Positions 16,546-32,054 of a DNA stretch of 64,000 nt are shown one piece after another; position 1 is the stretch's first letter, and every line of letters begins with the position of its first letter. The stretch spans positions 6,407,633-6,471,632 of the forward strand of contig NZ_CP061800.1 of the NCBI RefSeq assembly GCF_017377395.1, given 5' to 3'. The translations under genes were made by a program, and so were the position numbers. The notes beneath the pieces were generated by a model that saw only the letters and a program-made list of their open reading frames with translations, did no database searches and was not told where the DNA came from. The DNA comes from Desulfonema magnum. GTDB taxonomy: Bacteria; Desulfobacterota; Desulfobacteria; Desulfobacterales; 4be13.

Positions 16546-16644
16546 ATTAATCCTTCTTTTGTTCCAGAATAAGCTTTTATGCCATATTTGTCAATACTTT
16601 TTCATCAGAATAACACGCAACTATATGAAAAAAGTCCCTCGCCT

Positions 16645-18872
16645 CCTCCAATCCCTTTCATCTCCCGAAGGAGCAGGGAACCTCTGGGATACAGTGTTTC
16701 CCGCTAATGCCTGTATATGTTTCAATCCCTTTCATCTCCCGAAGGAGCAGGGAACCAAATTGAAAAAGAGGCAGATAGGGAATACTCGAAGTTTCAATCC
16801 CTTTCATCTCCCGAAGGAGCAGGGAACATGAGATGCAAAAAAAAGACCTTTTTTATCCATGTTCTGTTTCAATCCCTTTCATCTCCCGAAGGAGCAGGGA
16901 ACCATAGGACAGACCCAGAAGGGAAGCCGGGAATCATCGGTTTCAATCCCTTTCATCTCCCGAAGGAGCAGGGAACTATGGTTGCGGTTACAACGGGTAT
17001 GGTCACTTAGGGTCGCAATCCCTTTCATCTCCCGAAGGAGCAGGGAACTACACGGATTTTATATGTACATGTACATATCGTAGATGGTTTCAATCCCTTT
17101 CATCTCCCGAAGGAGCAGGGAACAATCCTCACGAATGGATACAAGCTTCGTACTATTCAAGTTTCAATCCCTTTCATCTCCCGAAGGAGCAGGGAACGAT
17201 GACAGAAATTCCCCAGGAAACATTTTCCAGGGGGTCACAATCCCTTTCATCTCCCGAAGGAGCAGGGAACCAATACAGGAGTGGCAAAGGCATATTATCC
17301 CGCCAGTCACAATCCCTTTCATCTCCCGAAGGAGCAGGGAACGGAAAAAATGACGCTGAGATCAATCAAATCCTCGGGTTTCAATCCCTTTCATCTCCCG
17401 AAGGAGCAGGGAACGATTCTCTACATGACCAGATCAGGAGCGCAGCAGCTGTTTCAATCCCTTTCATCTCCCGAAGGAGCAGGGAACCAGTTTCCCTTTG
17501 TGCATGTATTTTTTGACGAGATCAAGTTTCAATCCCTTTCATCTCCCGAAGGAGCAGGGAACCTGAGACTCCGGCCATTACCAAAATCAGACTCGGATAG
17601 TTTCAATCCCTTTCATCTCCCGAAGGAGCAGGGAACTGCCGTTAGGAGAATGATATGGCGAACAAAGATTAGTTTCAATCCCTTTCATCTCCCGAAGGAG
17701 CAGGGAACCTGACGACTGAAGAAATTCTGCGTCTTGAACCCAAAGGGTTTCAATCCCTTTCATCTCCCGAAGGAGCAGGGAACATTTATATGATATAAAT
17801 CTCGATGTCCGTCTGACGAGTTTCAATCCCTTTCATCTCCCGAAGGAGCAGGGAACGAACACATAGCCAGTTTCCGGATATCATGTAGGGTTTCAATCCC
17901 TTTCATCTCCCGAAGGAGCAGGGAACCAAAAACAAGTCCACAAATCTGCTCAGGCGCATCTGTTTCAATCCCTTTCATCTCCCGAAGGAGCAGGGAACAT
18001 GTATTCTGGAAAGATAATTTTTCGATGCAGATAAGTTTCAATCCCTTTCATCTCCCGAAGGAGCAGGGAACTCCAATGCCTCTTTTGACAGGGGAATTCT
18101 TTTTTGTTTCAATCCCTTTCATCTCCCGAAGGAGCAGGGAACGTTCGGGAAGGATGAAAGCAGAATGGACGCTGTTTTGTTTCAATCCCTTTCATCTCCC
18201 GAAGGAGCAGGGAACATCATGCAGAAAGGCGGCCGGGCCATCGTGCTTTGTTTCAATCCCTTTCATCTCCCGAAGGAGCAGGGAACGTTCTTTGCCTTCG
18301 TAGACAATACAGCCATTATCATGTTTCAATCCCTTTCATCTCCCGAAGGAGCAGGGAACTCTCGCTGGATTAACGGACACTTATACAAAATTTGGCTGTT
18401 TCAATCCCTTTCATCTCCCGAAGGAGCAGGGAACCTTCATTTTATATGTCTTGAATATTCCGTAAGGATGTTTCAATCCCTTTCATCTCCCGAAGGAGCA
18501 GGGAACAATTCTGTACATCCCCCTAAGAAAGAATGGTTCGCCGTTTCAATCCCTTTCATCTCCCGAAGGAGCAGGGAACTGCCGTTAGGAGAATGATATG
18601 GCGAACAAAGATTAGTTTCAATCCCTTTCATCTCCCGAAGGAGCAGGGAACTCCGAAAAATTACAGTGGATCGAATGGCGGCGTAGGAAGTTTCAATCCC
18701 TTTCATCTCCCGAAGGAGCAGGGAACAAAACGGCATCTCCCTCGAAGATTTGAAATATATGCTGTTTCAATCCCTTTCATCTCCCGAAGGAGCAGGGAAC
18801 AGAACTTCCAAAGGTTGTTGATTTTGCTGAAATTGGTTTCAATCCCTTTCATCTCCCGAAGGAGCAGGGAAC
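16645..18872 (-). CRISPR. CRISPR array 1: 31 repeats, 30 spacers
   Basis: 37-bp repeats, on the + strand starting GTTTCAATCCCTTTCATC and ending GGAGCAGGGAAC, spaced by 34-39 bp. The first repeat (16645-16681) is degenerate at its left end, marking the trailer; the right end (18836-18872) is perfect, so the leader is on the right and transcription is on the minus strand. On that strand the repeat ends ATTGAAAC, the usual 8-nt crRNA 5' handle, and contains CTCC-TTCG-GGAG, a UUCG-capped hairpin for Cas6. Three repeats (17012, 17234, 17306) have changed handles (ATTGCGAC, ATTGTGAC). The spacers at 17637-17671 and 18580-18614 are identical. Confidence 0.98.
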
Positions 18873-19162
18873 CGCATTTTGGAACTATCACGTTTAATAT
18901 CAGAAAATTACATTTTTTTTCAAACAGTCATATTTTGCCATTTTTCATCCTGTAATACCAGTTTTATGCCTGATTTCACAGTATCAGAGTCCGGTTAACA
19001 TTCTGAAATCAGGAAATAAATTTAAAAAATCGGCCTTTTGCCCCATAATTTTGTATCAGAGTATAATATCAGGGAACGAGCCAAATCAGAATTTGCCAGA
19101 TTCAACCTCTTTTGTCAAGACCTGATTTTCAGTTCTGTAACTGCTGAAAAAAATGCAGTTTG
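18873..19162 (-). promoter_or_regulatory. Leader region of CRISPR array 1
   Basis: About 290 bp of AT-rich DNA without a gene between the perfect terminal repeat and the cas6 relic. By repeat orientation and the decayed far end of the array, this is the leader side and should carry the promoter for pre-crRNA on the minus strand. An inverted pair, CTGATTTCA near 18970 and TGAAATCAG near 19004, is visible. I could not identify a confident -35/-10 pair. Confidence 0.55.
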
Positions 19163-19486
19163 TCAGCCAAGAACATACTGCCCCGGCCCGAAAGATGTCT
19201 TCTTTCTCACATGCACCCACTCCCCCGGCAGCAGAAAAGGCCGGAAAGGTGTCATATCCCCCTCGAAAGTGATCTCTCCCGGCATCCCCCCGAAAGGCAT
19301 CCGCCGCTTCTGGCGGTTGGAGTATCTCACAGCGTCTTCCCGGTACAAATTTGACGACACCGTTTTCACCTCCTCGGCCGCGTAGTTCAGTCCCCTGAAA
19401 TCAATCTCCCCGCATTTGTCAATCCCGCCATGGTGATAGGCCAGCGTGGTGCCCCGTCTCAGCAGACTGCGGAACAGCAGCCCGAA
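19163..19486 (-). pseudogene. Truncated second copy of cas6 (C-terminal part)
   Basis: Encodes about 107 residues matching the C-terminus of the intact cas6 at 20933-21895, from FGLLFRSL through GGIDKC, RYSNRQK and FEGDM to the final GQYVLG, with scattered differences. The first two thirds are missing. Just upstream is a long perfect hairpin (19527-19590), then the tail of a repeat module, then the first codons of a CARF gene. It lacks the N-terminal RAMP fold, so it cannot process crRNA by itself. Confidence 0.85.
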
Positions 19487-19681: not shown

Positions 19682-20890
19682 TTATTTAAACAGACAAACC
19701 AACACCTGAAACGCATCTGCCACAAATTCAGGTTCTGTCCCGTTATGTCTTCTCATTCCCGCGATGATCTTGTTTCTTACGCCCATGCCCATATGCTCCA
19801 CATATCCGTAATCTTTGAGTGTCTGAATCAGGATGGGATTTCGGGGAATGCGAAGCCCCAGCTTCATGCGTTCCACCGTGACATGGTTGGGAAGAGGCCC
19901 CGGGCTGATGACCTCCATGCGGTCCGAATATAACGAAATTTCGACATCCGCGGGTCTTGTCCAGTCCCGATGGACAAAAGCGTTGATGACAGCTTCCCGG
20001 ACTGCCTCAGGCGCAAAATCCCACTCAATCATTCTTGTCAACTGATTCTCCGCCAGTTTTTCCCGGGAAGCGTGTTGTCTGACTTTGCTCATCAGCAATT
20101 CCAGAAGACCCTGCTCGGTCTGCTCCCCGTGTTCGTCCCACAGTGCGACCAGAGGGCCGTCCAAGCTGGCCCTGTCCCGGGTATCATAATCTTTTTCTGT
20201 TCCCGGAAACACCACCCATTCCAGCCCGGCCTGCCGGAGAAAGCGTCCGGGTCGGTGTCCGAACAGGAGGAGTCCGGCAATGGTGCATAAGGGATCCGAA
20301 CCCTCATGAACAGTCATGTATTCCATGTTGATCAGTAGCCGAACCCATTCCTCATCCTCACGGGGCAGATTCTCCAATTTCCTCACCCGTCCGAAATAAT
20401 CCCTCAGACGCCTCGGATCAAGATGTGCGAAACAGGTTCCGGGGACAGGCAGAATCTCCACATGCAGAAACCCGCCCTCCTGAAAAAGACGCATTTGTTC
20501 CTCTCTGCTGGCCAATCGGGAGGTCAAACCCACACGAATGTAGATATTCTCCCCCTGACCGTGACGCATCACATAGGGCTTTGAGATGCCCATGTCCACG
20601 GAGATCACCGCAATCCGTTTCTCTCCCATCTGAATTTCCTCATAATACGGAATAATTCTGGGATGAACAATATCGGAACAGACATTCATAACCCATTCCT
20701 CAAGAGCGGCTCGGGTAATTCCGGACAGAGTTCCGTCATCCTCCACGCCCAGCAGTATTTTGCCGCCCTTAAAATTCAGAAGTGCGACAATCTCCTTTGC
20801 CAACTGTTCGGGCCGGATATCATCCCGTTTGAATTCCATTCCGGAATTCTCACCGTTCTGAATCCATCTCAGAATATCTTCCTGATTCAT
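19682..20890 (-). CDS. AlbA_2 (Schlafen-like) / HATPase_c_4 protein, intact copy
   Basis: 402 residues. N-terminal AlbA_2 domain (NGENSGMEFKRDDIRPEQLAKEIVALLNFKGGKILLGVEDDG) and C-terminal GHKL-type domain (AVREAVINAFVHRDWTRPADVEISLYSDRMEVISPGPLP, HMGMGVRNKI). This is the architecture of the COG2865 'putative DNA-binding/transcriptional regulator' group; AlbA_2 is related to Schlafen domains, some of which bind or cut RNA. GAGGAGAGGATGCA precedes the ATG. It lies 40 bp downstream of cas6 on the same strand and upstream of the CRISPR leader, so it is part of the cas operon. Its activity in immunity is not established. Confidence 0.85.
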   Translation of the reverse strand: MNQEDILRWIQNGENSGMEFKRDDIRPEQLAKEIVALLNFKGGKILLGVEDDGTLSGITRAALEEWVMNVCSDIVHPRIIPYYEEIQMGEKRIAVISVDMGISKPYVMRHGQGENIYIRVGLTSRLASREEQMRLFQEGGFLHVEILPVPGTCFAHLDPRRLRDYFGRVRKLENLPREDEEWVRLLINMEYMTVHEGSDPLCTIAGLLLFGHRPGRFLRQAGLEWVVFPGTEKDYDTRDRASLDGPLVALWDEHGEQTEQGLLELLMSKVRQHASREKLAENQLTRMIEWDFAPEAVREAVINAFVHRDWTRPADVEISLYSDRMEVISPGPLPNHVTVERMKLGLRIPRNPILIQTLKDYGYVEHMGMGVRNKIIAGMRRHNGTEPEFVADAFQVLVCLFK

Positions 20891-20932
20891 TGCATCCTCT
20901 CCTCTATGCCCATATCTTCCATTCTCTTTTTC

Positions 20933-21895
20933 TCAGTCAAGAACATACTGCCCCAGCCCAAAAGATGTCTTTTTTCCCACATGAACCCACTCCCCCGGCA
21001 GCAGAAAAGGCCAGAAAGGTGACATATCTCCCTCGAAAGTGATCTCTCCCAGCATCCCCCCGAAGGGCATCCGCTGTTTCTGGCGGTTGGAGTATCTTAC
21101 AGCGTCCTCCCGGTACAGATCTGACGACACGGTTCTAATCTCCTCGGCAGCGTGGCTCAGTCCCCTGAAGTCAATCTCCCTGCATTTGTCAATCCCGCCG
21201 TGGAGATAGGCCAGCGTGGTGATCCGTCTCATAAGACTTCGGAACAGCAGCCCGAAGGTGATCTCAGGATACTTCCCCTTTGCCTTTATTTCAAGACGGG
21301 TCACAAACCGGAATGTACATTGGTCAGGCGGGGGACGGCGTTCCAAGAGTTCTCCGCAGGAAATATGGATGGTCTCATTTCTCAGGAGCTGGTCCGCATC
21401 CAGATAAACTGGTGTCAAAGTCCCATTCATATCCAGGCTGTCAATCCGCTTCAAAAAGAACTGTCCCCGGCCCCGGCCCAGCCCTCTTTTTCCGGCATGG
21501 ATGAAAGTGTATGCAAAATAGGGCAGATACTCAACAGCCCTGCCCACCAGCACAAGCTCAAACATCAGTTCCTCACCCGGTTCATATTCCTCCTTCCCGT
21601 CCAACGGAGGCCGGAGGATATACGGATGTGATGCCTGATCTTTATTTCGGATAAAAGGGTCATCTTTGGGCGGAAAGGTTTCAAAAATATATGAATAAAC
21701 GCATTCCTCTGAAAGATGGCAGTCTCCGCATTCGGTCCGCGTGAGCGGACAGACCACCCGGCGAAACATAAGCCCGAAACTGCCCCGGATGGCCGAGCCT
21801 TTGAACGGAGGCAAATGCAGAGGCTCAATAGCCTCAATCGTCAGGCGGAAAACAGCGAATGAAAAAGGGGAAAGGATTGCAGATGTCTGATCCAT
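20933..21895 (-). CDS. cas6: Cas6 pre-crRNA endoribonuclease
   Basis: About 320 residues. The N-terminal RAMP half has PPFKGSAIRGSFGLMFRRVVC with a Cys cluster (CGDCHLSEEC); the C-terminal half has GGIDKCREIDFRGL, RYSNRQKQRMPFGG and the terminal LLPGEWVHVGKKTSFGLGQY glycine-rich loop. It matches the Cas6 family with conserved C-terminal domain. It cuts the repeat RNA 3' of the hairpin to leave the ATTGAAAC handle. I chose the ATG at 21895, 13 bp after the CARF stop codon, because the longer frame begins inside that gene with no ribosome binding site. A truncated duplicate lies at 19163. Confidence 0.9.
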   Translation of the reverse strand: MDQTSAILSPFSFAVFRLTIEAIEPLHLPPFKGSAIRGSFGLMFRRVVCPLTRTECGDCHLSEECVYSYIFETFPPKDDPFIRNKDQASHPYILRPPLDGKEEYEPGEELMFELVLVGRAVEYLPYFAYTFIHAGKRGLGRGRGQFFLKRIDSLDMNGTLTPVYLDADQLLRNETIHISCGELLERRPPPDQCTFRFVTRLEIKAKGKYPEITFGLLFRSLMRRITTLAYLHGGIDKCREIDFRGLSHAAEEIRTVSSDLYREDAVRYSNRQKQRMPFGGMLGEITFEGDMSPFWPFLLPGEWVHVGKKTSFGLGQYVLD

Positions 21896-21908
21896 AGCAG
21901 TATTTCTC

Positions 21909-23426
21909 TCACGAAACCAGTTCATTAAATTTTTTGAATTCCAAAGCCTGTCTCACAGCCTTAATCTTGTCCTCATTAACACCTTTCATCTTCAGCAGAT
22001 TTTGGATAATTTTTTCAGCATACTCCTCGGCTCTTTTCAGATCATTCATATCATCAACGACCTTAATGCTGTGTATCAGGACATGATTATTTCGAATGTT
22101 CTTCAGTTTTTTCAGTTCCTTCACATTGACATCCTCAGCAATGACAGAACCGTTGTTCTCCAACCAGTTCAAAACATTCGTGAATCCGATATGTGACGCA
22201 CTGCTCTGGGTTTGGCTGTCATGCGTATTCAAAGGGAAAACATTCTCCTTTTCAGCCCATAATATTAAGACAAATTCAGTCAATGTGATAAAGCGCAGAA
22301 AAGTCCCCTGAAGCTGGCTCTGAGATTTTCTCCTTCGGGCATTTTTAAGTCTGTCCAGGAGATAAAAAGAGAGCCACTCATTATTGGAACAGATTTTGCT
22401 TTTGGTCTCCCTGATCGCTTCCTCGTTTGCTTCCGGAAACGAATTTGCGGTCTTTTTATGGAATCTCAGCTTATCGCCATAATACTCTTCAATCTTTCCC
22501 AGAACTTTAAGAGCAGGCTCGTCCGGCAGATGATCGAGAGCTTCTTTATAGCGGTAATCGTCCCAGCACTCATATCCGCAGGCATAAGTTGTGATCTTCT
22601 TTATTCCCTCCTTTGTTTCCTCATCAAAATAGGCTTCATGCTTCCTGATGTTTTTCTCTATCCTGCTCAGCTCATTTTTGACTCGGCCAAACTGATAGCG
22701 GTCAAACAACGACTTGATACGCTCCCAGTCAACAATGCTGAATATCTCGGACGGATTGGGAAGTTTTGCCAGAAACTCCGTGCCATAGCATGGCTCCCGT
22801 CTTTGTAAGTCATACTCCTCGAAATCCACATAAAAAATGTCACAGGTTTGGCTGTGAGCCGAGGCCATGAATGATCCCGCGACCATGGTTTTCTTTCCGC
22901 CGGTGATATCAATAGCGATTTTCCTGCCCTCATTTTCAAGGATCAGGGCATTGATCGTCTTGAAAATTCTGGCCGGATCAGAAAGTTCCTCAAGGCGTTC
23001 CAGCCTGATATCGGCTTTTATTTTTTCATAATATTCCGCATCAATCACCTCAATCCCTTCCATGATCTCATCAACCAGATCCTCAGTATCCTCAGTGACA
23101 ACAAAAATGACATGCCCGGGCCTGATCTCTGCCAAACTGAGGATAATCGGCATGATCGAATACCCCACCAGAAAAATCCCAATATCATAGTGAGCTTCAT
23201 CAAAATCAGGAAGATACCCTTCTTTAACATGTTTCCGGTTTATCAGATGGATGACATTGAAATACTCGGGCAGAAGTTTCTTAAAAACATCAGTTGCATT
23301 ACCAAAATCCCTGTCATGATAAAGTTCCTGATATTCCAAATAGTTCAAATAATTGTTATCGAGGACCTCTTCCCAGTTCTCATCATCATCAATTTTTTCA
23401 AGTAGTTCAATTCTGTTTTCAAACAT
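21909..23426 (-). CDS. CARF-HEPN protein (TIGR02710/Csm6-like cyclic-oligoadenylate effector)
   Basis: 505 residues. A CARF-type Rossmann domain is marked by FLVGYS (84-90) and AIDITGGKKTMVAGSFMAS (171-189), the D-x-T-G-G-x-K ligand-loop signature. The C-terminal helical part has IRNNHVLIHS with R445 and H452 as a possible HEPN R-x6-H site. Known relatives bind cyclic oligoadenylate made by Cas10 and then cut RNA. Position between csm5/albA2 and cas6 fits that role. A remnant of its 5' end exists at 19640-19658. The exact family (Csm6 against other CARF-HEPN groups) cannot be fixed by eye. Confidence 0.82.
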   Translation of the reverse strand: MFENRIELLEKIDDDENWEEVLDNNYLNYLEYQELYHDRDFGNATDVFKKLLPEYFNVIHLINRKHVKEGYLPDFDEAHYDIGIFLVGYSIMPIILSLAEIRPGHVIFVVTEDTEDLVDEIMEGIEVIDAEYYEKIKADIRLERLEELSDPARIFKTINALILENEGRKIAIDITGGKKTMVAGSFMASAHSQTCDIFYVDFEEYDLQRREPCYGTEFLAKLPNPSEIFSIVDWERIKSLFDRYQFGRVKNELSRIEKNIRKHEAYFDEETKEGIKKITTYACGYECWDDYRYKEALDHLPDEPALKVLGKIEEYYGDKLRFHKKTANSFPEANEEAIRETKSKICSNNEWLSFYLLDRLKNARRRKSQSQLQGTFLRFITLTEFVLILWAEKENVFPLNTHDSQTQSSASHIGFTNVLNWLENNGSVIAEDVNVKELKKLKNIRNNHVLIHSIKVVDDMNDLKRAEEYAEKIIQNLLKMKGVNEDKIKAVRQALEFKKFNELVS

Positions 23427-23491: not shown

Positions 23492-24001
23492 TCATTCAAT
23501 AGCTGCTGCTCCGCTATCCTCATCGCTTATTGCATCTTCTTCTTCAACATCAAGACTTCTGTTCTCATCGCTTAATGTATTTACTCCAATCTGGAGGAGA
23601 TGGATATGCTCCTCTCTGCTGGCCAATCGGGAGGTCGAACCCACACGGATGTAGATATTCTCTCCCTGATCGTGACGCATCACATACGGCTTTGAGATGC
23701 CCATGTCCACGGAGATCACCGCGATCCGTTTCTCTCCCATCTGAATTTCCTCATAATACGGAATGATTCCGGGATGAAGCATGTCGGAACAGATATTTAT
23801 CACCCATTCCTCAAGAGCGGGCCGGGTGATTCCGGACAGGGTTCCGTCATCCTCCACGCCCAGCAGGATTTTGCCGCCCTTGAAATTCAAAAACGCGACA
23901 ATTTCCTTTGCCAACTGTTCGGGCCGGATGTCATCCCGTTTGAATTCCATTCCGGAATTCTCACCGTTCTGAATCCATCTCAGGATATCTTCCTGGTTCA
24001 T
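23492..24001 (-). CDS. AlbA_2 domain protein, internally deleted copy coupled to csm5
   Basis: 169 residues. Residues 1-135 are nearly identical to the N-terminus of the protein at 19682-20890 and hold the full AlbA_2 domain (GMEFKRDDIRPEQLAKEIVAF, KGGKILLGVEDDG). After SRLASREE it diverges to a new acidic tail (DVEEEDAISDEDSG). The HATPase part is gone. Start codon and csm5 stop overlap as TGATG, so translation is coupled and the protein is made in step with Csm5. It may be a functional stand-alone domain or a decaying duplicate; the intact frame and coupling keep the first option open. Confidence 0.75.
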   Translation of the reverse strand: MNQEDILRWIQNGENSGMEFKRDDIRPEQLAKEIVAFLNFKGGKILLGVEDDGTLSGITRPALEEWVINICSDMLHPGIIPYYEEIQMGEKRIAVISVDMGISKPYVMRHDQGENIYIRVGSTSRLASREEHIHLLQIGVNTLSDENRSLDVEEEDAISDEDSGAAAIE

Positions 24002-25569
24002 CACAATCTTTCCAACCTGACCCACCCCAGGGGATATTCACCTTCGCCCTTATCATTACAGATGATCTTTGCGGATTTGGGTACCTCATCCCCGTGTTTT
24101 CGAGGTTTTCCGCCGTCGTAAGAGATGATTTTGTCCCTCAGTTCCACCAGTTTCTCTTTCAAGTTCGGACTCTCCCTGAACAACAGGGCAAAGCTCGTCC
24201 CCAGGAGGCCGCTTCCCCAGCCGATTTTTATGGCGTTCTCAACCGGCTTTTTGTAGAACTCAATCAGGGGGTTTATGTTGACAGCATTTCCTTTGCCGCC
24301 AATTTCAATGGTGTTGTCAACTTTCACATCCGTCGCATTCAGACCTTTATTTGTCTTCTTCGTGTTGAAGGAGACTTTATCTTTTTCTCTGATCGTATCC
24401 CTGTCTTTTATCTGAACCTCATTGATATGAAAAAACAAGTCTTTTTGAAGCCTCGGACACTGAATAAATCCGAAGCCCCTGTCGTAAAAGAATCGTTGAA
24501 CAACACCCTGCTGACGTCCGTCAGGGGAAAACTCGCTTCTCTTCTGATAAAACTGGGAATGAAAGGCACCGAGTTCTTCCCATACTGCCTCAGAAAACTC
24601 AAACACGATAGCCATAAGCTGATCCAAATTTTGAAAAGGGATGGTGTAATCTCCCCAGCGGGATCTTGTTCTCTGAGAATTTGAAAACTTTTTAAGCAGA
24701 TCGGTATCAAGGGAAATATCAAAGCTGACAGAACCGCCTGGATCAGGGCAAAAATAGGTTTCCGTATTAAATTCTATGAAGCTGTTCCCCCGGTGTTTCA
24801 TCTTGAAATAGGGCGCATGATTTCTGTCCAGACTTAAAATCCGAGCCTTTTTTTCGCTGATGCGACGGGTGTCAATAAAAGATGAATCCTTGATCTTCAC
24901 GGTCCGGAAAACATCGGTAAAATGGGAAGAGGATTTTATTTTCTGCTTTGGCGATATGTTTTTCGCGGTCAGATGAAAGCCCTGAAGAATATCCTCCACA
25001 ATCGCGGCGGCAACTCTCCACTTAAATCTGTTCTTTTGATGGCGGGGTTGTCTGTCAAATTCTTTAATTTTTCCATTTATGTATGCTGTCATTTCAGCGT
25101 CAAACTGTGTTGGATTGTTACTGCGGATTTCCCTCAGAATCTTCCACAAAACCGCTGTTCGGATAACCCCTTTGACAGATGACCCCGGAATATAGGCCCT
25201 GTCCATGCCATTGCGAATAAAGTACAGTCTGTTATAGCCTTTTTTCACCTTGGCATAGACCTTGCCTCTTGCAACATCACGGGTTTTGGTGAAATCGAAT
25301 TTGTTATCTCTCAAAAACTCGGAAATCCCCTTGTCTTTGGGTGCATCTTCCAGCCAGTTTGCAAACTTGATGATGATATCAAGTCCCCCATGATGTTCAA
25401 ACAGATAATTTTGCAGCTTCATGGTGTCCACAAGATAGATGAACTTATTATCATGAGGGCTGCGGATAAAGCACTGGCCGTAATTTGCGCTCCCGTCGCT
25501 GCCTTGAATATGAACAGGGGAGATCGGGGTCAGCCGGTATGTTCCGGTCTCAAGATAAGACGGCGTCAT
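24001..25569 (-). CDS. csm5: Csm5 with an internal cold-shock domain
   Basis: 522 residues, longer than the usual 350-420. RAMP features: LTPISPVHIQG near the N-terminus, AYIPGSSVKGVIRTAV (126-140), and the C-terminal IGWGSGLLGTSFALLF (449-464) with PLGWVRLE. Between them, residues about 352-418 form a cold-shock domain: QGVVQRFFYDRGFGFIQ carries RNP1 (RGFGFI) and KDLFFHINEV carries RNP2, followed by KDKVSF and GLNATDV. Csm5 caps the 3' end of the crRNA in the Csm complex; cold-shock domains bind single-stranded RNA or DNA. AGGAG 7 nt upstream sets the start at 25569, overlapping csm4 by 20 bp. Confidence 0.9.
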   Translation of the reverse strand: MTPSYLETGTYRLTPISPVHIQGSDGSANYGQCFIRSPHDNKFIYLVDTMKLQNYLFEHHGGLDIIIKFANWLEDAPKDKGISEFLRDNKFDFTKTRDVARGKVYAKVKKGYNRLYFIRNGMDRAYIPGSSVKGVIRTAVLWKILREIRSNNPTQFDAEMTAYINGKIKEFDRQPRHQKNRFKWRVAAAIVEDILQGFHLTAKNISPKQKIKSSSHFTDVFRTVKIKDSSFIDTRRISEKKARILSLDRNHAPYFKMKHRGNSFIEFNTETYFCPDPGGSVSFDISLDTDLLKKFSNSQRTRSRWGDYTIPFQNLDQLMAIVFEFSEAVWEELGAFHSQFYQKRSEFSPDGRQQGVVQRFFYDRGFGFIQCPRLQKDLFFHINEVQIKDRDTIREKDKVSFNTKKTNKGLNATDVKVDNTIEIGGKGNAVNINPLIEFYKKPVENAIKIGWGSGLLGTSFALLFRESPNLKEKLVELRDKIISYDGGKPRKHGDEVPKSAKIICNDKGEGEYPLGWVRLERL

Positions 25570-26536
25570 CTTCTGTCTCCTGAACTGTGCAGGGGAATGC
25601 CAGGGCCTTGCCGAATCGGTAAACCGGGTGAGCGGAGAAAATTGCTTTCGGGGCCACATTCACCAGTCCCCCTGCGGGTTTGTTCGCAAAAATCGAGCCT
25701 TCGCCGAACATTCGGCATGTCTCCCGCTTGAATTGTCCCAGGGCCACAGAGGAGAAGGTCCAGCCTTTGCGTAGAACCAGGGAATAGGCCATGGGAGATA
25801 AGGCGTTCAGGTTCATGGGATAGTAGAGGGAAACAATGATGAAGTTGTCTCCGCTGCCTTCAAACAACGGCTTCCATTTATCATCAGGCGGTTCAATCTC
25901 AAAGTCAAACACACCATACCCCAGACTCCTTCTGCCCCCGAGTCCCTTCATGGCCGCGTTATCCAAAATTTTCTTCAGAATTCCTTGTTCCACGCCGTCA
26001 ATGAGGAAATAGATGCCCGCGGTCTTGTCGAAAAACATCTCTCCGGCATGATAGATATTCGAGGCATTTGTCAGCCGGTCTCTTGCGTGTTGCGGTCTGA
26101 TGTTGATGGTGAACAATTCCTGATACCCCTGGTTCTTAAATTTCACCAGAGAAATTTTCTCCCCCCTGATCCATTTGGAAAAATTATCTCTGTCAATATA
26201 CAGACATCGCTTCAACTCCTTGTGCCATCTGAGTTTGTTTTCCTTCCCGTGCTTGCCGGAGAAATTCACAGGATCGGTCAGGGGGCGGGGAAGATAGTAT
26301 TCAAATTGTTTGCGACGGTATTCACAAAAGAGAAATCCTGAAGAAAGGGTCTCTATGGAATCAATGAGGGACGCGATCTTTTCCGCATTTCCTGAGACAA
26401 TATCCGCATACGAATTGACCAGCATACTGAAAAGCGTGTCAGAATGAACGATCTCCTGAACCTTTTCCCGGCCGATACCGCCCCGGTCGGCCCCGAGATG
26501 AAGGCCGGTCTTAAACCTCAGCCTGACGAGTCTCAT
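25550..26536 (-). CDS. csm4: Csm4, type III-A RAMP subunit
   Basis: About 328 residues. Starts MRLVRLRFKTGLHLGADRGGIG, the typical Csm4 opening, with HSDTLFSML, then GLGGRRSLGYGVFDFE as the glycine-rich loop and a C-terminal RAMP-like half. Csm4 binds the 5' handle of crRNA and docks Cas10. The ATG at 26536 was chosen over upstream in-frame starts because GGGGGCAGGA precedes it. It overlaps the 3' end of csm3 by about 26 bp, and csm5 overlaps its own end, so the set is tightly coupled. Confidence 0.9.
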   Translation of the reverse strand: MRLVRLRFKTGLHLGADRGGIGREKVQEIVHSDTLFSMLVNSYADIVSGNAEKIASLIDSIETLSSGFLFCEYRRKQFEYYLPRPLTDPVNFSGKHGKENKLRWHKELKRCLYIDRDNFSKWIRGEKISLVKFKNQGYQELFTINIRPQHARDRLTNASNIYHAGEMFFDKTAGIYFLIDGVEQGILKKILDNAAMKGLGGRRSLGYGVFDFEIEPPDDKWKPLFEGSGDNFIIVSLYYPMNLNALSPMAYSLVLRKGWTFSSVALGQFKRETCRMFGEGSIFANKPAGGLVNVAPKAIFSAHPVYRFGKALAFPCTVQETEDDAVLS

Positions 26537-27410
26537 TCCTGCCCCCATTTTTATAATTATCGGCAAATCCCTTGGCAAAATCCGGAAGTAGTTGAATTCC
26601 TTGACCGACTTTGACAGGTTCCTCTGGTTCGGGTTTCTCTATTTTCACTATCTCAGACCCGTCAGAACGAAGCCCTTTGATAAAATCTATGTCAAACTGT
26701 ATCTGTCCATATCCCCGGGAGATGTTTCCTCCCAAGCCGTCATGTTCGAGGATGCTCATGGCTTTCAGGATGTTGGAGATATCTTCCTGAAGATTCGGAA
26801 ATACAGGAGATTTCAATTTTTCCGCAGTGTCCTCCCCGACCTTTCCAAGCATCTCCACCCGATAGACCATCTCAAAGTCAAATTCCGCGCCTGCCGGCAC
26901 CCTTTCGATGGTGCGGGGATGAGCTGCGGAGGTAAGCCTGTCCAGGGTGTTCTCTGTTTTAGCCTCGAATATCGGCATCCCTTCATCCTTCAATTTCTCC
27001 GGGTTGGCCAGTTTCCCGTCCCGGAACAGGAGCGCGGTCGGGTAGTTGTTGTTTTTGGACTCTTTCCCGGATGCGCCGAAAATACGGCATAGCGGACAGT
27101 CTTTCGCATTTGTGAAATCATCACATTCGTGCCGCCATACTTTCCCGTCTTTGTCGCTCTTCCGGTTTGCCATTAACGGCACACCGTCAACAGTGACAAT
27201 TTTCTCCACCGTACTCCTGAGTTTCCCTTTGAGCGAGCTTCCGGGAATGTACGGCTCGTTGGTCACGGGATTGCGGATCACAAAGCTGTCTATGCCGCCG
27301 ATTTCAAGCACATCGGATGATCCGCCGATATGAAGTCCGCTTTTGCACACTATTTTTCCGCGGAAAAAGACGTTCCCGAACAGATATCTGAAATGCGTTC
27401 CCTGTTGCAT
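26511..27410 (-). CDS. csm3: Csm3, backbone subunit and target-RNA nuclease
   Basis: 299 residues, longer than the common 210-250. N-terminal SGLHIGGSSDVLEIGGIDSFVIRNP and EPYIPGSSLKGKLRS are the Csm3 signature. Asp41 (in GGID) aligns with the catalytic Asp33 of Streptococcus Csm3, so target-RNA cleavage every 6 nt should be active. A CDDF...CPLCRIFG segment (Cys/His cluster) follows, then GLGGNISRGYGQIQF. AGGGGGA before the ATG supports the start. Extra length lies in the C-terminal tail (EKPEPEEPVKVGQG onward). Confidence 0.92.
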   Translation of the reverse strand: MQQGTHFRYLFGNVFFRGKIVCKSGLHIGGSSDVLEIGGIDSFVIRNPVTNEPYIPGSSLKGKLRSTVEKIVTVDGVPLMANRKSDKDGKVWRHECDDFTNAKDCPLCRIFGASGKESKNNNYPTALLFRDGKLANPEKLKDEGMPIFEAKTENTLDRLTSAAHPRTIERVPAGAEFDFEMVYRVEMLGKVGEDTAEKLKSPVFPNLQEDISNILKAMSILEHDGLGGNISRGYGQIQFDIDFIKGLRSDGSEIVKIEKPEPEEPVKVGQGIQLLPDFAKGFADNYKNGGRNETRQAEV

Positions 27411-27422
27411 GATTCCCCCTGT

Positions 27423-27818
27423 TTATTCAGCATATTGTATAATAGCCTCGAAAAATTTGACAAACTTGTACATGTCCTTTTTCTTCTTAACCTTTTGGAT
27501 GGACTGGTCCATAATCTCTTTGAATGCCGGAGGAATTTTGTTCTTCCTGACCGCGCCAGCGAAAGCCGGTCTCAGAAAAATCAGCCGGGCCAGAAACATC
27601 TCCTCCAGTTTGTCCCCGTCAGCCATGTTCTTCATCTTGGGATCATCCCATACGCCTCTGATTGCGTCGTAAAATCTTCTCATCTGGGTCGGTGTCAGTT
27701 GTCTTTCTTTGAATTTGCAGCTTTCCGCCCATTTCACAATCGTTGAGGCAGGAACATCTCCGAACTGATGATTCTTGTTTTTGTCGAAATGTGCTTTTAT
27801 CTCGTCAGCCACACGCAT
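27423..27818 (-). CDS. csm2: Csm2, small subunit
   Basis: About 131 residues, helical and basic: TPTQMRRFYDAIRGVW matches the conserved Csm2 segment (LTxxQLRxFY), and the C-terminal KFFEAIIQY helix is also typical. Csm2 lines the target RNA in the complex. The ATG at 27818 follows GGTGG and lies 4 nt after the csm1 stop; the longer frame reaching 27851 would begin inside csm1. Confidence 0.88.
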   Translation of the reverse strand: MRVADEIKAHFDKNKNHQFGDVPASTIVKWAESCKFKERQLTPTQMRRFYDAIRGVWDDPKMKNMADGDKLEEMFLARLIFLRPAFAGAVRKNKIPPAFKEIMDQSIQKVKKKKDMYKFVKFFEAIIQYAE

Positions 27819-27822
27819 TTGA

Positions 27823-30189
27823 TTATCCACCTTTCCTGTGCAAATATTCAACCCATGTCAGAGGGGCCAGCAGCTTGGGCATCTGCTCTGTTCTCAGATT
27901 GAAGAACAGTTTCGCACTGTCGTCGCCCAGGTTTTTCCTGCTCTTTTTGATCACATAATGAAGCGCAGGCATACACAACACCCCGTCCTTCTGCCATATT
28001 TCCACGACCATGAACAGCTTGTGCATCAGCGCGTGAGAGACTTTGGACCAGTCAATCTTATTTGTCATATCCCGCGCCATGGCGAATACGTCCTGGTCCG
28101 CATCATCCCAGAAGCTGGCCTGGGAAATGATCTTTTTGGGAGGACTCGTATCCCAGCCGCGTCTCTCCTTTTTCAACCTGTCATGGAGAAACCTGTCCTT
28201 TGCCTTCCACGATTCATTATAAAACAGACAGAGGCTGTCCTTTTCTCTGAAATTGATCTCACTGTTGTCCTTGGCTTCGCTCTCCCCTTTTTTGGACATC
28301 TCCGCAATCTGATAGACCGGATAATTGGGCTTGTGCAGCGTAACCCCCGCGCTCAGTGTGACGCTTTTGTTGTTTCCGGTATATTCCCGGAAGGCCCTGC
28401 GGATATCAAAGGCGATTTCAGCGACCTGGTCCCATGCTCCGAGGATAAAGAGGTCATCACCTCCGGAATAGATAATGTCAACAGGTCTTGCTTTGTTGCC
28501 GGACCCATCCGATTTGATCTGATACGCATCAAACCCGAGCCGGCCTTCACAGACAAAATTGATGTAATATTTGAAAAAAAGCGTCAGATGGCGGGATAAT
28601 GATGCCATTCGGGGCATTGACTTATCTGAAAGCCCTTCAAGAAACACTCGTCCGAGGTTGTCCACATCCATCCGCAGCGCGGCGATGAAGTGCTTGCCCC
28701 GGGATTCTTTTGCAAGCTCCTCCAGTTCCTCACATCCTGATGTATAGGTGCCGATGAGCAACTGGGTCCCATGCCTGTCCACCCAGTCCTTTGCGTCCCA
28801 GGAATTGATAATGTAGGTGAACATGCCTTTTTGGGGTGTTTTTGAAAATGTGTAGAATGAGTCCGCGATCTTAAAATCATATTTTCCCGTACCAGGTGTT
28901 TTGGTTGTCTGGACAAACCGGTAAGTTTCGCCTTTTTTCAACCGGCCTGAGATTCTGTTAAAATCATAACAGGAGCGGCAGGTGCTGATGCCTTTTGTTT
29001 CATCATAAGTGATGGGCTTGTTGTCGGTATGGCATATCGCACACGATTCATCAAGGTTCTGAGGCAGTTGTGTTTTGAAAATCTGATCTAACAGGCCCGC
29101 AAATTTCCTCTTTTTTGAATCTTCTATCTTTTGCGACAGCTTATACCAGACATCGGCAAAAGGATATTCTGAATTTTCCCTGGAACCTGAAATCAGATCA
29201 TTTCCGCAGAATTCTGTAAATTCAATGTGGAAACAAAGTGTTCCCTCAAACTCATCCAAGAGCCATTTGTTGATATGGCTTCTGATCCCCTTGATGTTAT
29301 CCCTGGCAGACTCGGTATTCTGAGCCATGAGATAGAATCCGCCTCCGCCGGAATAAATGAGGTTTGCAAATGAGACATTCAGGCTTTCTATCAAGTCCAG
29401 GACCACTTTCTCTGTGAGCATCTCCAGGTAAAATGAGCGGCCCCTCAGACTTTTCAGCGCATTGGCCGAGGAGATGGTGTAGATGAAATCCTGAACCCCT
29501 GATATGTCCCCGCCAATGAGCAGGTGTTTGTTCTCGACCCGGTCCGAAATAGCCGCGTTCAAATCGGTGTTTTCCAGGTATTCCCCGTGAGTTTCTGACA
29601 AATGGTTGAAAATATTGGCTGCAAGTGCTCCTGATATTTTGGCGTGCTGATACAGGGAGATGTCGCTGATGAGGGTTTCCGAACCGGGTTGAAAAGGGAC
29701 AAAGGAAAAATATTTTTCCAGCAACATCAAGGCTGCGCTGATGCTGAGATGGGACTTTATTTCAAGGATATCCTGTTCAAAATCCTGCCACAAGCTTTGA
29801 ATATCAGGTGGTGAGTCTGGTGGTGTGAACAGGGGATAAAGGATTTCATCACCGATTCTGGCAGGCATGAAAAATGACGGGGAGGCTTTTTCTTTTTTGC
29901 CGAGTCGGATATTGCTGAAAGCATTGAGTAATCCGTGTTTGTGGGTCTTGGTGTCTTCCGCTGCTTTTTCCTCAGAACCGGCTCCTGCTTTTGCCAACTC
30001 GTTTGCCTGGGAGAGAATGGAAAGAGAGTTCAGGTGCAGATTGCTGATTTCAGCATCATGGGAAGGATGGGAGGTAAAGGAAATCACATCATCAAGACCG
30101 GTTTCCTTTATCCATTGACTGATCTCCGTGAACTGATCCAGGGGGTTGAACAACGCACTTAAAATCACATTTCTGAAGTGACTGTCCAT
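27823..30189 (-). CDS. cas10: Cas10/Csm1, cyclic-oligoadenylate synthase subunit
   Basis: 788 residues. First Palm begins at LLIGGDISGVQDFIYTIS (223-240) and has YSGGGGFYLM; a zinc ribbon uses C383, C386, C404 and C407; the second Palm has the catalytic GGDD at 576-579 (DIIYSGGDDLFILG). So cOA synthesis should be active, matching the CARF-HEPN gene downstream. The N-terminal 170 residues lack a recognisable LLHDIGK-type HD motif; only SHD at 43-45 is seen, in the wrong context, so the DNase site seems lost. GGAG about 10 nt before the ATG supports the start. It is the first gene of the operon. Confidence 0.93.
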   Translation of the reverse strand: MDSHFRNVILSALFNPLDQFTEISQWIKETGLDDVISFTSHPSHDAEISNLHLNSLSILSQANELAKAGAGSEEKAAEDTKTHKHGLLNAFSNIRLGKKEKASPSFFMPARIGDEILYPLFTPPDSPPDIQSLWQDFEQDILEIKSHLSISAALMLLEKYFSFVPFQPGSETLISDISLYQHAKISGALAANIFNHLSETHGEYLENTDLNAAISDRVENKHLLIGGDISGVQDFIYTISSANALKSLRGRSFYLEMLTEKVVLDLIESLNVSFANLIYSGGGGFYLMAQNTESARDNIKGIRSHINKWLLDEFEGTLCFHIEFTEFCGNDLISGSRENSEYPFADVWYKLSQKIEDSKKRKFAGLLDQIFKTQLPQNLDESCAICHTDNKPITYDETKGISTCRSCYDFNRISGRLKKGETYRFVQTTKTPGTGKYDFKIADSFYTFSKTPQKGMFTYIINSWDAKDWVDRHGTQLLIGTYTSGCEELEELAKESRGKHFIAALRMDVDNLGRVFLEGLSDKSMPRMASLSRHLTLFFKYYINFVCEGRLGFDAYQIKSDGSGNKARPVDIIYSGGDDLFILGAWDQVAEIAFDIRRAFREYTGNNKSVTLSAGVTLHKPNYPVYQIAEMSKKGESEAKDNSEINFREKDSLCLFYNESWKAKDRFLHDRLKKERRGWDTSPPKKIISQASFWDDADQDVFAMARDMTNKIDWSKVSHALMHKLFMVVEIWQKDGVLCMPALHYVIKKSRKNLGDDSAKLFFNLRTEQMPKLLAPLTWVEYLHRKGG

Positions 30190-31129: not shown

Positions 31130-31591
31130 TTATCTTTCCAAAAATTCCTCCGGTGTGAGGATAGTGCCCGGAAATTTATTTTTGAAATGTCCGCTGTCCC
31201 ATGTGACCATTGTCGGAACAAAGGGCAGATACTTTTTTGCGAGAGCAATCATCAGAGCATCCCCGAATGAAGTCCTTTTTTTAAGCAGTTCAAATATCTC
31301 ATTAACTTTCAGATTCGGAAAGTCACTTCTTATATCAGCGCCGGGGAACACCGTGATGTTATATTTGTCCGCAAAGCAGAACCACAGTTCATACAACTGC
31401 CTCTCACTGAGATTAAAAGAGAGAATTCCGCAAAGTTCCAACAGGTTGACAACGGTGGTAAGACCTTTTCCGTTCTGTGCCATGAGTGTCAGAAACTCAC
31501 TGTTTTTATTGTAATGAACATCTCTTTTGTAACGAAGGTCTATTACAAATATGTTCGTGTCGATCAGAACGAATTCCGATTGCGAACCCAC
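31130..31591 (-). CDS. PIN-domain toxin (VapC-like)
   Basis: About 153 residues. PIN acidic residues: VLIDTNIFVID (first Asp), LLELCG (Glu), FGDALMIALA (Asp) and TWDSGHF (Asp/His). PIN toxins are metal-dependent RNases that cut tRNA or rRNA. I place the start at a GTG at 31591 because AGGAGG lies 7 nt upstream of it, inside the antitoxin gene; the ATG at 31609 lacks one. The start overlaps the antitoxin's end by 28 bp, the usual coupling. Its 3' end comes within 35 bp of CRISPR array 2a. Confidence 0.82.
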   Translation of the reverse strand: MGSQSEFVLIDTNIFVIDLRYKRDVHYNKNSEFLTLMAQNGKGLTTVVNLLELCGILSFNLSERQLYELWFCFADKYNITVFPGADIRSDFPNLKVNEIFELLKKRTSFGDALMIALAKKYLPFVPTMVTWDSGHFKNKFPGTILTPEEFLER

Positions 31592-31905
31592 GCTGTCGCC
31601 TCCTGCCATGTTTCAAATTCGGGTTTTGTTTTTTCCAGTGATTCCTCAATACCTTTCCATGCCTCGTCAGATGAATACAGCTTTTCCGAGACTTCTCTTT
31701 CCTTTTTCCTGTCATAAGATTCCAGAAAATCTCTGAGATCGTCCTCAATAAGATCGGACTGCGGATTCCGCAGAGGATTTTTCTTAACAGACGCCTCTCC
31801 GGTGTCTTCAAGAAAGGTGACTATCACATCAGCTCTTCCCTGTATGGGAACATCTTGCGAAACACTGACCTTTCCGTCTTCATATATGCCCGGAACAGAT
31901 AACAT
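31564..31905 (-). CDS. Antitoxin partner of the PIN toxin
   Basis: About 113 residues. N-terminal beta-rich segment GIYEDGKVSVSQDVPIQGRADVIVTFLED resembles the small beta-barrel 'DGK..L..PxP' antitoxin-like proteins; the C-terminal part is charged and helical (EDDLRDFLESYDRKKERE, then WQEATAWVRNR), suited to wrapping a toxin. Start at 31905 chosen for GGGGGTGGG upstream. A frameshifted relative is at 16410-16545, next to array 1. Assignment as antitoxin rests on gene order and overlap. Confidence 0.7.
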   Translation of the reverse strand: MLSVPGIYEDGKVSVSQDVPIQGRADVIVTFLEDTGEASVKKNPLRNPQSDLIEDDLRDFLESYDRKKEREVSEKLYSSDEAWKGIEESLEKTKPEFETWQEATAWVRNRNSF

Positions 31906-32054
31906 TGTCCCACCCCCTTTCACTGTCAATGATAACCCCCCATTTCATTTTTGTCAACATTTTATAAGCGGGGGCGAGGGGCAAGGGGCGAGAGGCAAGA
32001 GGATCCGGGCAACTCCCAAAATCCCCTCGCCTCCCGCCTCTGGCCCCTCGCCCC

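Follow-up and report, generated by a model that had tools for sequence, protein, structure and literature searches.

Csm5 is the type III-A subunit that caps the 3' end of the crRNA and influences target-RNA affinity; its β3'-loop and helix α1 grip crRNA positions +17 to +21 at that end, and its homologue in type III-B systems is Cmr6 (PMC10289348). In S. epidermidis, a disordered C-terminal segment of Csm5 (residues 310-320) recruits PNPase, and an unmapped site on the same protein recruits RNase R (PMC9762709). A cold-shock domain (CSD) fused to the 3'-cap RAMP subunit is already present in the PDB on the III-B side, where entries 9arw, 9z7q, 9z7v and 9z7x contain a “CSD domain-containing protein Cmr6”; in 9arw (chain H) the CSD is N-terminal, covering residues 3-61 of 376. 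CSDs also occur as predicted RNA-binding parts of the CoCoNuT systems, in which CnuB and CnuC carry CSD-like OB folds and, in type I-A, the CSD is inserted within another domain; these systems likewise target RNA in defence, but they are of the McrBC type, without crRNA or RAMP proteins (PMC11090510). The Csm5 described here differs from the Cmr6 of 9arw in that it belongs to a type III-A system and its CSD is internal.

The window, meaning the whole stretch of DNA that was analysed, comprises 64,000 nt of the Desulfonema magnum genome (assembly GCF_017377395.1, contig NZ_CP061800.1, positions 6,407,633-6,471,632), and all coordinates below refer to it. Its type III-A locus has the gene order cas10-csm2-csm3-csm4-csm5, followed by a truncated AlbA_2 ORF, a CARF-HEPN effector, cas6 and a CRISPR array. 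The features are as follows.

16640-19040, plus strand (not a call of the transcribed strand): CRISPR array of at least 30 units of about 73 bases, repeat GTTTCAATCCCTTTCATCTCCCGAAGGAGCAGGGAAC; the right end is approximate
20933-21925, minus strand: cas6 (PF10040, E 5e-18; PADLOC Cas6, E 8.5e-101)
21909-23426, minus strand: CARF-HEPN effector of the Csm6/Csx1 kind (PADLOC CARF1-CARF_HEPN, E 9.5e-44)
24001-25569, minus strand: csm5 with the CSD, 522 aa (TIGR01899, E 3.7e-27; PF03787 RAMPs, E 1.4e-7)
24190-24225, minus strand: glycine-rich loop IGWGSGLLGTSF, Csm5 residues 449-460, its glycines invariant in the homologue alignment
24274-24534, minus strand: whole insert with linkers, Csm5 residues ~346-432, delimited by Csm5 homologue alignments
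24319-24513, minus strand: cold-shock domain, residues 353-417 (Pfam 354-416), from PF00313 and the OB-fold model
24424-24438, minus strand: RNP2, LFFHI, Csm5 residues 378-382
24463-24480, minus strand: RNP1, RGFGFI, Csm5 residues 364-369
25550-26578, minus strand: csm4 (TIGR01903, E 5.7e-64; Csm4_C, PF17953)
26511-27410, minus strand: csm3 (TIGR02582, E 2.2e-58), with the aspartate present in GLHIGGSSDVLEIGGIDS
27423-27851, minus strand: csm2 (PF03750, E 1.9e-18)
27823-30189, minus strand: cas10/csm1 (TIGR02578, E 1.1e-160), the match starting at model position 64

All csm genes of the operon are uninterrupted. By comparison with known Csm3 proteins, GLHIGGSSDVLEIGGIDS would be the target-cleavage loop. 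Cas10 keeps the GGDD palm motif at residue 576; because it reads LFNPLDQ in the region where the canonical LLHDIGK is expected, its N-terminal HD nuclease motif has probably been lost. In the CARF-HEPN effector, RNNHVLIH fits the HEPN R-x(4-6)-H motif. Taken together, these motifs make a working III-A system, capable of target cleavage and cyclic-oligoadenylate signalling, plausible.

The csm5 gene reads as one uninterrupted minus-strand frame, whereas the plus-strand reading contains stops, and it adjoins csm4 in the operon, its start overlapping the csm4 end by 20 bases. The NCBIfam Csm5 model TIGR01899 scores 95.8 bits against a cut-off of 38.3, in a match that splits into two stretches flanking the CSD, the second of which covers model positions 291-364. 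The PGSSxKG, GxGxG loop, PKS and PLGW motifs are all present, and most of their columns are invariant in an alignment with eight homologues. On this sequence evidence, the product is a genuine Csm5. The Csm5 proteins of T. onnurineus (6mur_F) and S. epidermidis (7uzz_E) have the same RAMP core, PGSSxKG, GWGSG loop, PKS, PLGW and gene order; the solved Csm5 proteins listed lack a CSD, and our protein differs from them by the CSD placed in a hinge that is short in nearly all relatives. A chimeric assembly was also considered: in the assembled sequence, the genome is a single contig, the frame continuous, the composition similar and the borders free of repeats.

This hinge lies after a conserved helix and before the strand that leads into the GWGSG (GxGxG) loop, and alignments with other Csm5 proteins show the conserved core resuming on both sides of the insert. 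The stretch between the helix end and the glycine loop, compared across 81 distinct Csm5 ORFs, spans 10-52 residues in nearly all and 113 in the protein studied here; it reaches 107 residues in the other Csm5 that this genome encodes, where the insert has no Pfam match, and one truncated ORF gave a length of 0. The hinge is thus variable in length across Csm5 proteins, and it is this site that the CSD occupies. The glycine loop itself is conserved by alignment to the solved Csm5 proteins and presumably corresponds to the β3'-loop that grips the crRNA.

PF00313 matches residues 354-416 over 63 of its 66 model positions (2-64), scoring 52.6 bits where the cut-off is 27 (E 4.2e-14); a chance match is excluded. 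Both RNA-binding motifs are intact, and F366, F368, F379 and H381 are retained; by CspB numbering, these correspond to the base-stacking residues F15, F17, F27 and H29. The alignment with cold-shock proteins places R359, I382 and R390 where CspB has W8, F30 and F38, which also stack bases. Free CspA and CspB are single-domain proteins that share the fold, RNP1 and RNP2; the Csm5 domain differs from them at those three positions. It is also basic (pI 9.7, net charge +5), whereas four free cold-shock proteins of the genome are acidic (pI 5.5-6.1). Its identity to the host's free cold-shock proteins is 27-33%, the closest relative seen being a phage match at 47%. The GC content of the CSD resembles that of the remaining first part of the gene; no direct repeats of at least 8 bases are shared by the two borders of the insert, and the frame is unbroken. 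The retention of the motifs on a domain so diverged argues against decay, but much of this divergence may predate the capture of the domain. Binding of single-stranded nucleic acid is predicted from the intact RNP motifs, with the W8, F30 and F38 positions changed.

These results agree with the first-pass annotation of this DNA, which had given the gene correctly as 24001-25569 and 522 residues (leaving out the strand, which is minus), had placed a CSD with RGFGFI and LFFHI at about residues 352-418, and had put it before the conserved C-terminal loop, a position borne out by IGWGSGLLGTSF at residues 449-460. An OB fold at residues 352-418 had been set beforehand as a test of that reading, and in the AlphaFold2 model, made for residues 346-434 alone, five strands form an OB-fold barrel in which the pLDDT block means lie at 88-93. 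Compared with E. coli CspA (1mjc), the model gave a VIA-align Z of 12.1 and an rmsd of 1.4 over 68 aligned residues; all the top matches among solved structures are cold-shock domains, led by 1mjc, and Foldseek agrees. Of the 32 aligned sequences behind the model, 31 were cold-shock proteins of phages and bacteria, so it tests whether the sequence is compatible with the fold and does not discover the fold independently. The whole Csm5, modelled from its single sequence, reached a mean pLDDT of 33, which says nothing about the placement of the CSD in the complex.

Our Csm5 does not share the architecture of the CSD-bearing Cmr6 (an N-terminal CSD followed by the Cmr6 RAMP), as its CSD is internal and its core scores as Csm5. 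Against 9arw chain H, the alignment is confined to the two CSDs (E 6e-5), and this chain is absent among the best 50 structural matches listed for the CSD model. The presence of a CSD on the 9arw Cmr6 nevertheless means that a cap subunit combining RAMP and CSD is not unprecedented.

The distribution of the fusion was assessed at several levels. A profile HMM derived from the CSD alignment found no CSD in 86 other Csm5 ORFs, whereas the protein studied here matched with E 1e-23. TIGR01899 scored above its cut-off in 77 of 395 genomes of the host's phylum. Protein searches across the host's order, class and phylum (1,627 genome searches in overlapping samples, with the family and the host's own genome included) returned no second Csm5 with a CSD. 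At the DNA level, a pattern combining the CSD motifs and GWG at near-native spacing had a single occurrence in the window and none in shuffled sequences. Across genome contigs of 84,980 species it gave three matches, all of them free cold-shock proteins whose downstream match arose by chance and none a fusion; the pattern demanded an isoleucine before GWG and near-fixed spacing, so it would miss fusions of other geometry. No Csm5 was found in the viral contigs scanned, and the plasmid search yielded only an ordinary cyanobacterial Csm5. A 334-aa ORF with a CSD elsewhere in the genome (L051) is a CSD protein in its own right that has hydrophobic segments and is not a RAMP. Within these searches, the Csm5 with the CSD is a singleton: the same fusion, which a conserved subfamily would show in other genomes, was found nowhere else, and no insert-bearing orthologue was found that would show conservation of the fusion.

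The literature search found no paper that connects a cold-shock domain to either Csm5 or Cmr6; in two genome papers the terms co-occur without such a link. The first-pass annotation knew of no described Csm5 with this insertion, and none was found in the 86 other Csm5 ORFs, the protein searches, the pattern scan or the papers searched; its novelty is narrowed by the CSD on the III-B counterpart Cmr6, already in the PDB. The same annotation had said that its reading would be undermined by an insertion unique to this genome with broken motifs in close relatives; the insertion is unique in our searches, and no insert-bearing relative was found in which the motifs could be compared. Csm5 with a CSD is a real and rare domain architecture, with a similar fusion already known in the sister III-B system.

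As to its role, we slightly favour an accessory single-stranded-RNA clamp at the crRNA-3'/target-5' end. In the proposed course of events, a CSD would have been captured into a permissive loop of the subunit that caps the crRNA 3' end and kept as a clamp; there it would bind single-stranded RNA that emerges at this end of the complex, most likely the 5' flank of the target transcript, the untrimmed 3' tail of the crRNA, or both, and so stabilise target capture and set the extent of crRNA trimming by host nucleases. That the domain binds one or other of these two RNAs we consider likely; taken singly, the target flank is a tentative choice, a little short of even, and the crRNA tail a more doubtful one. 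This reading draws on the CSD match, the OB fold, the retained F366, F368, F379 and H381, the basic charge, the variable hinge and the neighbouring csm, cas10, cas6 and CARF-HEPN genes with their CRISPR array, together with the reported effect of Csm5 on target affinity, the CSD of Cmr6 in 9arw and the CSDs of CoCoNuT systems. Counted against it are the lack of an orthologue in the searches and the changes at the W8, F30 and F38 positions.

The first-pass annotation had suggested, as possible roles, an extended crRNA or target-RNA path, protection of the crRNA 3' end and recruitment of trimming nucleases. The same observations bear on three other explanations. The CSD could serve mainly in crRNA maturation, by docking or guiding host 3'-5' exonucleases (PNPase and RNase R, with S1/CSD-type OB folds) or by holding the 3' tail for them, in place of, or alongside, the disordered PNPase-binding segment of other Csm5 proteins. 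Both the recruitment of these nucleases by S. epidermidis Csm5 (PMC9762709) and the alignment, which puts the insert in the C-terminal part of the protein, ahead of the GxGxG loop, speak for such a role. The PNPase-binding segment, however, follows the glycine loop while the CSD precedes it and is thus not its replacement, and the RNP motifs are kept although protein docking would need none of them intact; we regard this explanation as unlikely. Less likely still is that the CSD is a passenger, a recent insertion that a permissive loop tolerates and that does nothing for the complex. Its singleton status and the variable length of the loop, which holds a different large insert in the genome's second Csm5, speak for this, but the RNP motifs are intact despite an identity of 27-33% to the host's cold-shock proteins and at most 47% to any relative seen, and the distinct basic charge, the matching GC content, the clean borders and the unbroken frame also argue against it. 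Finally, the domain might bind something else, such as the single-stranded DNA of the transcription bubble or a host mRNA for localisation. CSDs can bind single-stranded DNA (PMC11090510), and the apparent loss of the Cas10 HD nuclease motif could mean that the complex acts differently on DNA; since the known contacts of Csm5 are with crRNA and target RNA and nothing positive points to another ligand, we hold this to be highly improbable.

If the CSD is an RNA clamp at the 3'-cap end, a further step, which is possible but which we doubt, is that it adds a single-stranded-RNA contact that reads or holds the target 5' flank outside the guide pairing, altering discrimination or dwell time and hence cyclic-oligoadenylate output, with CSDs recruited independently to Csm5 and Cmr6. 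In type III complexes, crRNA length and target affinity are under the control of the 3'-cap subunit, whose variable parts are little understood; the CSD of this Csm5 and the comparable one of Cmr6 suggest that RNA-binding domains have been recruited there more than once. The Csm5 loop also tolerates a whole folded domain, a property useful for engineering RNA-detection complexes.

Further observations concern the surroundings of the locus. Part of it is duplicated (19160-19460 versus 20929-21228, and 20480-20779 versus 23591-23890), with the partial copies, a C-terminal cas6 fragment and the truncated AlbA_2 (Schlafen) ORF, sharing 90-91% identity with the nearby full-length cas6 and AlbA_2-ATPase genes. 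At 31130-31929, a 159-aa ORF with a weak PIN-domain match adjoins a 121-aa ORF; together, next to the CRISPR locus, the two look like a toxin-antitoxin pair of the VapBC type. A second III-A locus of the same genome, about 70 kb away (L021, genome positions 6495000-6512000), has a PIN-like ORF of 141 aa between csm4 and csm5; its Csm5, 653 aa long, is extended at the C terminus and carries a large insert of another kind in the same hinge. Many Csm5 proteins in the host's phylum (L002, L029, L025 and L021) carry such C-terminal extensions, of about 80-200 aa, which are poorly described and have no confident Pfam match.
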